Source: an uncultured Litoreibacter sp.
GTDB taxonomy: Bacteria; Pseudomonadota; Alphaproteobacteria; Rhodobacterales; Rhodobacteraceae
Direction of reading: 5' to 3'
Assembly: GCA_947492995.1 (NCBI GenBank)
Contig: CANLOU010000001.1
Span: 567,001 to 631,000, forward strand
Length of the DNA stretch: 64,000 nucleotides
The translations under genes were made by a program, and so were the position numbers. Shown here one piece after another: positions 2,987-59,886 of this stretch. Position 1 is the stretch's first letter; each line of letters starts with the position of its first letter. A model generated the notes under the pieces. It saw nothing but the letters and a program-made list of their open reading frames with translations. It did no database searches and was not told where the DNA came from.

Positions 2987-3039
2987 TTTTGTACAAATTG
3001 GGGACACTCTTTGACGGGCAAAACCCAATTTGTACAAAA
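2987..3039. repeat. Palindromic TTTTGTACAAATTGGG element
   Basis: Two perfect inverted 16-base arms: TTTTGTACAAATTGGG at 2987-3002 and CCCAATTTGTACAAAA at 3024-3039, separated by 21 bases. Each arm contains the self-complementary TTGTACAA. A clearly related sequence occurs inside leuS at 58492-58542, so this is a dispersed element rather than a one-off operator. Transcribed from either strand it would form a long hairpin; there is no T-tract typical of a terminator directly after it. Confidence 0.75.
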
Positions 3040-57339: not shown

Positions 57340-59886
57340 ATGTCCCGCTACAACGCCCGCACCGTCGAACCCAAATGGCAGGCCGCCTGGAATGAGGCCG
57401 AGGCCTTTCTGGCCAAGCGCGATGACACCAAGCCGAAATACTACGTGCTGGAGATGTTCCCCTACCCGTCTGGCCGCATCCATATCGGGCATGTGCGCAA
57501 CTACACGATGGGCGATGTGATCGCGCGGTACAAATCCTCATGCGGTTTTTCTGTATTACATCCAATGGGTTGGGACGCCTTCGGCATGCCTGCGGAAAAC
57601 GCTGCGATGGCCATTGGCGGCCATCCCAAGGAATGGACCTACGGCAACATCGCCGCGATGCGCGACCAGATGAAGCCGTTGGGTTTGTCGATCGACTGGA
57701 CCCGGGAATTCGCGACCTGCGACCCCGAATATTACGGCCAACAGCAGGCGCTGTTTTTGGACATGCTGGATGCTGATCTGGTCTACCGCAAGAACGCTAT
57801 GGTCAACTGGGATCCGGTCGATATGACCGTTTTGGCCAACGAGCAGGTGATTGATGGTAAGGGCTGGCGCTCGGATGCTCCGGTGGAGCGGCGAGAGCTA
57901 ACCCAATGGTTTTTCAACATTTCTTCGATGGCAGATGACCTGCTGGACGCGATTGACGGCCTGGACAATTGGCCCGCCAAGGTGAAGCTGATGCAATCCA
58001 ACTGGATTGGGCGGTCGCGCGGGCTGCAGTTTGCGTTTGAACGCACCGATGGTGGTGAGGCGATTGAGGTCTACACAACGCGCCCAGATACGTTGATGGG
58101 GGCGTCTTTTGTAGGCATCTCCCCAGACCATCCGCTGGCCAAGAAGTTGGAGGCATCTGACCCGAAAGCCGCTGAATTCATTGCAGAATGTCGCAAAGGC
58201 GGCACCACGGCGGAGGCGTTGGAGACGGCTGAAAAGCTGGGCTACAACACCGGCCTGACGGTCAAGCACCCGCTTGATCCAAGCTGGGAATTGCCCGTCT
58301 GGGTCGCCAACTTCATCTTGATGGATTACGGCACCGGCGCGATCTTTGCGTGCCCCGCACATGACCAGCGCGACCTTGATTTCTGCCGCAAATATGACCT
58401 GCCGGTGATTTCCACCTTCGAGCCGAAGAACAATGAAGGTTTCGTTAAACCGGAGACCAGCGGCGAGGCATATGTGCCGCCGAAGGACGAAATTGTACAA
58501 TTTGTACATTTTCTGGAGGGCCTAAACCCCATTTGTACAGGAATTGAAGCCGTCGATCACGCCATCGCCAAGGCCGAAGCTGAGGGTTGGGGGACGGGTC
58601 AGACCAAGTTCCGGCTTCGCGATTGGGGACTGTCACGGCAGCGCTATTGGGGTTGCCCGATCCCGGTCGTGCATTGCGCCGACTGCGGCGTGGTGCCGGA
58701 GAAGAAAGAGAACCTGCCGGTGGAACTGCCCGACGATGTGTCCTTCGACATTCCGGGCAATCCGCTGGATCGGCATCCGACATGGCGCGACACCGAATGC
58801 CCGTCTTGCGGCAAGCCTGCGAAACGCGAGACCGACACGATGGACACGTTTGTGGATTCGTCCTGGTATTTTGCGCGGTTCACGGCTCCTCGGGCGGAAA
58901 CGCCGACCGATATTGATGACGCCGCCTATTGGATGAATGTCGATCAATATATCGGCGGCATTGAGCACGCGATTTTGCATCTGCTTTATTCGCGCTTCTT
59001 TGCGCGGGCAATGAATGTGACGGGGCATCTGCCGCAAGGCACCGCCGAGCCGTTTGACGCGTTGTTCACCCAAGGCATGGTGACGCATGCGATTTACCAG
59101 ACGCGGGACGAAAACGACCGACCCATCTATCATCTGCCGGAAGATGTGGACGAGGCGAACGCCACGCTGCGCGAAACCGGCGAGGCGGTGGAGGTGATCC
59201 CGTCTGCCAAAATGTCGAAATCCAAAAAGAATGTGGTCGATCCAGTCGACATCATTGACCAATACGGCGCTGATACGGCGCGGTGGTTTGTGTTGTCGGA
59301 TTCGCCGCCCGAGCGGGACGTGGAATGGACGGCCTCCGGGGCGGAGGCCGCTTGGAAATTCCTTGGCCGCGTGTGGAGGTTGGCCGAAGATCTTGGCGAC
59401 GGCGACGACACAGACGAGGCGTTGGAGCGCGAAACCGCCAAGGCGATCCACGAGGTCACCGTCGGCATCGAGACATTTGGCTTTAACAAGTCGGTCGCCA
59501 AGCTTTACGAATTCGCCAACGCGATCCAGAAATCGAAAGCGGGTCCGGGGGCGAAACGCAAAGCGGTGAAAACTATCGCGCAGCTTATGTCGCCGATGAC
59601 CCCGCATCTGTCAGAAGAGATTTGGCAGCACTTGGGTGGCGAAGGCCTGATTGCGAAAGCGCCATGGCCGGAGGCGGATGAAAGCCTGCTGAAGGAAGAC
59701 ACCGTCACCTTGCCGATCCAGATCAACGGCAAACGCCGTGCGGAAATTCAAGTGGCCGCCGACCTGCCCAAGGAAGAGGTTGAAAAGCTGGCGCTGGCAA
59801 ACGAAGCTGTCATCAGGGCGCTCGATGGTGGGCAGCCCAAGAAGCTGATCGTGGTTCCGGGGCGCATCATCAATGTTGTTATCTGA
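57340..59886 (+). CDS. leuS: Leucine--tRNA ligase
   Basis: An 848-residue class I aminoacyl-tRNA synthetase charging tRNA-Leu. HIGH signature is HIGH at residues 48-51 and KMSKS at 624-628 (AKMSKSKKN). The editing domain lies about residues 225-415, and [16 protein letters not shown] follows it. Residues 384-402 are encoded by a copy of the palindromic TTTGTACA element (see repeat at 58492), with codons unusual for this genome. The 3' end overlaps the lptE start by 14 bases, and holA follows, an arrangement common in alphaproteobacteria. Confidence 0.97.
58492..58542. repeat. Copy of the palindromic TTTGTACA element inside leuS
   Basis: The stretch contains TGTACA at 58494, 58503 and 58534. 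Its outer copies lie 40 bases apart, close to the 41-base distance between the two TGTACA of the rpsO-pnp element. Left end TTGTACAA-T-TTG and right part GGGC-CT-AAACCCCATTTGTACA match the intergenic element (TTGTACAAATTG and GGGCAAAACCCAATTTGTACA). It is translated in frame and uses GTA, GTA, CTA, TGT, ACA, GGA codons within 19 codons, which are otherwise scarce nearby. Confidence 0.65.

Follow-up and report, generated by a model that had tools for sequence, protein, structure and literature searches.

The palindromic elements of Rickettsia are 105-146 bp long, and conserved protein genes also contain in-frame copies of them (PMC2229807). REP elements are short palindromes of 20-40 bp, some of which lie inside genes (PMC3733652). 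The CtrA box of Alphaproteobacteria is given as TTAA-N7-TTAAC (PMC4046655). Searches of the open PMC literature, by titles and the beginnings of abstracts, showed nothing on the Litoreibacter palindrome family described here, and the string TTGTACAAATTGG is absent from it. The nucleoid proteins SlmA, Noc, and MatP have dispersed palindromic sites. Short heterologous DNA segments reportedly substitute for genomic DNA by short-patch double illegitimate recombination, the subject of a 2016 study by Harms and colleagues; the phrase for short-patch recombination is absent from the open PMC literature.

Here, we analysed a stretch of 64,000 nucleotides (the window; G000:C1:567001-631000) from an uncultured Litoreibacter sp. 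whose genome, G000, comprises 3.84 Mb in 13 contigs. A segment of its leuS gene belongs to a dispersed palindrome family. The preliminary description of this locus drew on the Rickettsia precedent, which holds for in-frame copies in conserved genes but not for element length or mode of insertion, leaving a loose parallel only. We regard the finding as real and unusual: the repeat and its in-frame copy are genuine, and the mode is overwriting.

A palindrome family with a divergent copy in leuS

The leuS gene (leucine--tRNA ligase; 57340-59886, forward strand) is an intact ORF of 848 aa, whose product matches solved LeuS chains in phmmer with a best E-value of 3e-241. A divergent 47-bp family copy lies in frame at 58493-58539 on the forward strand, covering codons 385-400 (16 residues). 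Its doubled left arm, TTGTACAATTTGTACA (58493-58508, forward strand), contains two GTAC located 40 and 31 bp from the GTAC of the right arm, CCCCATTTGTACA (58527-58539, forward strand), which resembles the right arm of the family; the left-arm TGGG is replaced by TGTAC. A canonical intergenic copy is located at 2987-3039 on the forward strand, with arms TTTTGTACAAATTGGGG and AACCCAATTTGTACAAAA flanking a variable centre. The letters of both copies, and outer TGTACA spacings of 40 bases in leuS and 41 in the intergenic copy, agree with the preliminary description. TGTACA occurs nine times in the 64-kb window, three of them inside the 47-bp leuS segment. The codons had been called scarce in this gene, and the counts bear this out: GTA is used twice in codons 385-402 (18 codons) and twice in the remaining 830, CTA, TGT, and GGA once each here and once each in the rest of leuS, and ACA once here and four times elsewhere. 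Third-position GC in these codons is 0.28, compared with 0.72 in the rest of leuS, and is equally low at 3 of 830 sliding 18-codon positions.

The pattern TTGTACA-N20..50-TTGTACA gave 32 forward and 31 reverse matches in G000, and its reversed control gave 3 and 2. Thirty-two copies align nearly gap-free, with a left arm TTTTGTACAAATTGGGG, a variable centre, and a right arm AACCCAnTTTGTACAAAA; the arm consensus is about TTTTGTACAAnnTGGGG, the second arm being inverted and the GTAC centres usually 41 bp apart. A covariance model built from 32 copies with leuS excluded (R1) finds 36 places in G000, of which 33 score at least 51.9 bits and two lie in the window. The proposal that the leuS segment is repeat-derived is upheld, and further copies are many. 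The intergenic window copy scores 73.5 bits (E = 1.2e-14), and the leuS copy has the lowest score of all 36 (23.1 bits; genome-wide E = 0.115), so that taken alone it is marginal by R1. Separately, one 38-bp copy (L024 1496-1545; G000:C1:1268270-1268319) has a left arm that is apparently inverted in place.

Two relatives, G016 and G018, have the sequence TTGTACAATTTGTACAAAATTTrGAGGGCCTAAACCCATTTTGTACA at these leuS codons, where r is G or A, and both versions resemble the family more than the window copy does. A second model (R2; 31 copies, leuS excluded) scores the leuS place at 28.6 bits in G018 (E = 0.00014), 27.5 bits in G016 (E = 0.00026), and 16.6 bits in G000 (E = 0.14); the remaining 15 of 18 leuS loci gave no match at E<=1. 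With a two-half matrix built from the 74 copies not inside genes, the G000 leuS copy reaches 18.1, a value with a per-position tail of about 1e-5, and none of the 17 leuS sites lacking the element exceeds -66.8. If the family is defined by two inverted GTAC arms with a TGGG inner part, about 41 bp apart, the leuS copies of G018 and G016 belong to it by their R2 E-values, and the window copy is marginal. The combination of the GTAC spacing pair (31,40) with a doubled left arm was found, among the 85 loci examined, only in leuS (L018) and in L125 of G018, which lies directly before a reading frame that we take, from its sequence motifs, to be PurM-like.

The family comprises a few dozen dispersed copies in some marine Litoreibacter. 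Across genome_contigs (84,980 species), a search from which records very near the window's own were possibly left out, the strict pattern found 34 stretches, 33 in Litoreibacter and one in a MAG contig labelled Roseovarius. The latter (L303) is a single canonical copy outside the named genus, for which a binning error is possible. Under stricter filters, 9 of 101 genomes had a match at E<=0.01, namely 8 of the 21 of the genus and G073 of another family, which has two model matches (best E = 1.5e-5). The other 13 genus genomes, two of them less than 90% complete, had no match under these filters; the sites are thus not needed throughout the genus. R2 places number 9 in G006, 12 in G020, and 1 in G017. 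Besides leuS, G016 has at least 18 places and G018 at least 31, these being the ones examined among the matches listed.

The leuS gene itself appears to have an uneven history. Identity between G000 and G016/G018 is 0.79-0.88 in 250-bp windows from 57340 to 59090, and in two 250-bp windows from 58090 G000 is only 0.50-0.65 identical to G005, G006, G013, and G020; outside leuS no such contrast was seen. A four-gene tree groups G000 with G020 and G006, weakly (support 50-69 at the relevant nodes). Over 57340-59340, most markedly at 58090-58590, leuS looks like a recombination mosaic. The LeuS editing domain has two allelic types across the genus, and the element-bearing segment may therefore have been transferred between lineages.

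The element overwrites codons in four conserved genes

The element is present in 3 of 30 aligned LeuS (G000, G016, and G018; the LeuS of G019 was left out). Within the segment the carriers have one codon more than the 27 others, with the V, GL, and TG positions in register, and the 27 proteins without the repeat also lack these residues and codons. The segment had been described as inserted in frame. It does sit in frame within the intact ORF, but it is not inserted: it stands in for ordinary LeuS sequence with a net gain of one codon within the element, and the codon-for-codon alignment supports the reservation made at the time that replacement was possible. In the carriers, four extra codons relative to most relatives lie just upstream, outside the element; the same upstream length occurs in the non-carrier G045, and G022 is longer still. 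Residues 361-380, upstream of the element, are 0.25-0.45 identical to the 27 non-carriers. Since residues just upstream are also unusual in carriers, the replaced leuS sequence is defined only approximately.

Three further genes carry copies in frame; from sequence motifs we take them to encode an M3 peptidase (Dcp-like), TilS, and MccB. In the M3 peptidase, the element is found in G000 and G006 only, and the match covers 600 bp for 200 aa in all 21 genomes, which means no length change. In TilS, it is found in 2 of 21 loci (G018 and G016), whose local length equals that of 9 of 18 comparable relatives, eight being one codon longer and one four longer (the truncated G019 locus was left out). 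In MccB, 5 of 19 loci have hits (G000, G018, G020, G005, and G016) and G017 has a weak one (E = 0.095). The MccB span over the query is 690 bp in the five carriers, 681 bp in G017, and 660-678 bp in the 13 no-hit loci, carriers being 4-10 codons longer, and degraded or altered forms are seen in G017 and in G016, where the arms are altered. The codon change at replaced sites is thus 0 in Dcp, 0 in TilS (against half of the relatives), +1 in LeuS, and +4 to +10 in MccB. In-frame overwriting has occurred in four conserved genes, three of which are locally unchanged or little changed in length. For LeuS, Dcp, and TilS the alignments rule out simple insertion. Six loci in these four genes are clearly interior; the other 11 of 17 gene-overlapping loci are at gene edges. 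At L074, whose gene extends beyond the locus edge, no ORF was found.

The same pattern could have arisen in place, if selection for a binding site at a given chromosomal location had turned native codons stepwise into arms, which would leave length hardly changed and residues kept. We consider this origin unlikely but deserving of serious weight. It accords with the change of 0 or 1 codon in three of the four genes, with the native residues retained within the element (DLxGLP in Dcp, LxxLG..GL in TilS), and with the ranking of the carried peptides among 82 copies for in-frame fit to the native protein, first for Dcp and first and second for the TilS carriers. In TilS other copies fit nearly as well (6.00 against 6.11), by a native profile of nine relatives of equal local length from which eight (+1 codon), one (+4), and one truncated sequence were dropped. 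Stepwise conversion is, however, difficult to reconcile with the matrix scores, which are 18 to 76 at seven carrier sites and -42.5 or lower at 54 non-carrier sites (19 Dcp, 18 TilS, and 17 LeuS; MccB left out), without overlap and without any intermediate among the non-carriers. The native sites have no special resemblance to the element, each value being the best of some 50-70 positions; homology-guided landing was rejected on the same values. Moreover, the Dcp centre too resembles the element family, and the genome-specific shared extensions and centres described below point to copying.

Copies share genome-specific extensions and centres

Flanks matching a G018 element locus were found for 15 of 18 G016 loci (among the matches listed) and 12 of 36 G000 loci, with L008 ambiguous. 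In the orthologous pairs (n = 14 and 12), arms are 94-96% identical, centres 56-68%, and flanks 40-73% (ungapped); the arm value is inflated in part by ascertainment, because the finding model needs the arms. Centre identity is 0.69 between G016-G018 orthologues, 0.60-0.62 within G016 and within G018, and 0.54 between non-orthologues of different species. In G000 it is 0.476 within the genome versus 0.495 across species, indicating no centre homogenisation there; homogenisation of the family is partial. The extension TGTACGGAG directly precedes the left arm in 8 of 36 G000 loci, 0 of 31 G018 loci, and 0 of 18 G016 loci, and the centre GGGGCAAAACTTTT occurs in 7 of 18 G016, 0 of 31 G018, and 1 of 36 G000 loci (G016 and G018 counts among the matches listed).

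A mobile palindromic element of the MITE or Rickettsia type, inserted in frame and later trimmed by deletions to near-original length, would account for dispersed inverted repeats, for their presence or absence between species, and for in-frame coding copies. Also in its favour, the arms are free of stops in all six frames and MccB carriers are 4-10 codons longer. Even so, we find this explanation improbable. In three of the four coding cases the difference is 0 or +1 codon relative to at least half of the relatives. Shared outer 4-6-mers occur in 5 of 82 copies versus 3-9 in ten re-paired controls, giving no signal of target-site duplication, although old duplications could have decayed. RAYT (PF01797) was found in none of 13 genus genomes (G000-G012, including the carriers G000, G005, and G006; G013-G020, with the carriers G016-G020, were outside the search), and 5 of 14 control genomes were positive; identity with REP/RAYT was rejected on this result. 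The strict pattern had no match in viral contigs, on which ground a phage origin was also rejected.

Arms are conserved at a nearly fixed spacing

The arms are conserved at a near-fixed distance: a GTAC spacing of 41 alone is found in 76 of 85 loci, and the rest have 40, 42, 31, pairs of values, or none. Stem columns 15-16 vary without covariation, the covariation score of 0.036 being equal to the shuffle mean and reached by 279 of 500 shuffles. If the element acted in RNA at the 3' ends of genes, either terminating transcription in both directions or stabilising mRNA as a hairpin, good folding and convergent neighbours would be in keeping. The intergenic window copy indeed folds well (z = -5.7), and 18 of the 85 loci are in convergent and 4 in divergent contexts, as called by a simple purpose-made caller (of the rest, 41 lie between codirectional genes, 17 coincide at least partly with a called gene, and 5 are incomplete). 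We nevertheless judge an RNA-level element decidedly improbable, given the absence of covariation, the nearly fixed loop length, the copies interior to four genes, the weak leuS folds, and several copies directly upstream of start codons. Folding both transcripts, a check suggested in the preliminary description, gave a strong structure for the intergenic copy only, with z = -1.8 for leuS of G000 and z = -2.7 for leuS of G018; since the two transcripts fold differently, what is conserved is not an RNA hairpin common to both. A search of four loci for known RNA families returned one sub-threshold snoRNA-family match (26.5 bits versus a gathering score of 50; E = 0.27), 594 bases from the element in L018. 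The weakest alternative, that a variable LeuS loop resembles the repeat by chance, might be read from the E-value of 0.115 for the window copy alone and from residues 361-380, outside the element, which are divergent too, but is very improbable and regarded as refuted by the better R2 matches at the same codons of G016 and G018 against none in 15 other loci, with the (31,40) spacing common to L125 and the extreme codon use also opposing it.

A second arm class, TGGGACAnTTTGGG (TGGGACA), occurs in 49- and 39-bp forms. Among 12 genomes searched, it was found at nine places in G016, four in G006, and one in G019; G000, G015, G017, and G020 had one match each without the TTTGGG part, and the other five had none. 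The reversed control gave one match each in G002, G012, and G013. A synteny-based search of G016 for eight G018 sites located five (L117, L120, L125, L130, and L133). Inspected by eye, each of these five contains an element-like palindrome, in several cases with GGGAC or hybrid arms; the two species carry their own versions at shared positions. G016 counterparts of L131, L132, and L144 were not located. Second-class and hybrid GTAC/GGGAC elements of G016 share chromosomal positions with G018 copies. The G016 sites L183 and L195 have no element at the corresponding G018 position, and L193 was not located.

Chromosomal placement and a CtrA-like box

Evidence for even chromosomal spacing is weak (P = 0.059 in G000 and 0.027 in G018, which are not independent), and a regular run of ten copies in contig C1 (CV 0.18) was chosen after inspection. 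Avoidance of the origin was rejected as unconvincing: if gidB is taken as an origin proxy, G000, G020, and G006 show a large stretch free of elements around it, whereas G018 has a copy no more than 28 kb away. Orientation relative to the replication strand showed no consistent pattern by eye. In G018, 13 of 30 copies (L117-L147) have a TTAA-N7-TTAA box, one mismatch being allowed, at exactly 20 bp beyond the right GTAC, and at this offset it also occurs in 6 of 17 G016 copies, both counts being among the matches listed, and in 1 of 31 G000 copies; its background frequency is 7.6e-5 per position. The box is absent from the six interior coding loci.

Discussion

The observation that a palindrome-family segment lies in leuS is confirmed, and the interpretation first given to it is partly supported. 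The reading we favour, to which we give about even credence, is that the elements are paired protein-binding DNA sites spread by short-patch copying and that the leuS segment is a diverged member. Most likely, a protein acting as a dimer or tetramer would recognise the arms as DNA, their helical phase being fixed; this protein and its function are inferred, as is the patch-copy mechanism. The family would spread, and become partly homogenised, by the copying of patches of about 50 bp between existing copies in a manner resembling gene conversion. Rarely, a patch might be copied over unrelated sequence, replacing host DNA of about equal length. In-frame patches in leuS, the M3 oligopeptidase gene, tilS, and mccB may survive because the encoded peptide keeps the needed residues, in line with the top-ranking fit of the Dcp and TilS carrier peptides to the native proteins. 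A more specific proposal, which we hold to be doubtful, is a genus-restricted system that writes paired protein-binding sites by replacement of about 50 bp and has, in one species, been rewriting the set to a new arm specificity (GTAC to GGGAC). Of the inferences drawn, protein sites and patch copying have the best support, and both are unproven.

In leuS, the M3 peptidase gene, tilS, and mccB, a DNA-level element and a protein function occupy the same bases, forming a comparative set in which relatives without the element serve as controls. The entry of a repeat into a gene at almost unchanged length thereby becomes testable. The family also points to a putative protein that would bind DNA at a few dozen paired sites in one marine bacterial group and may be linked to CtrA.

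The few dozen dispersed palindromes resemble the sites of SlmA, Noc, and MatP, which are protein sites there and putatively so here, but they have no clear origin bias. A possible link to CtrA boxes is the TTAA-N7-TTAA at a fixed offset in some of the listed G018 and G016 copies; it is nearly absent from G000 and absent from the interior coding loci. With REP elements they share short palindromes that in some cases lie within genes, but they differ in low copy number, in a two-arm build of fixed spacing, and in the lack of RAYT in the 13 genus genomes searched, which include three carriers. Short-patch double illegitimate recombination, going by the title of the study, is similar in that short segments substitute for genomic DNA. 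Like the Rickettsia palindromic elements, the family consists of dispersed palindromes with in-frame copies in conserved genes, four of them here, whereas its core is 38-49 bp and its arm spacing nearly fixed. The Rickettsia elements are described as insertions; those of Litoreibacter overwrite, and in three of four genes the length is unchanged or nearly so.
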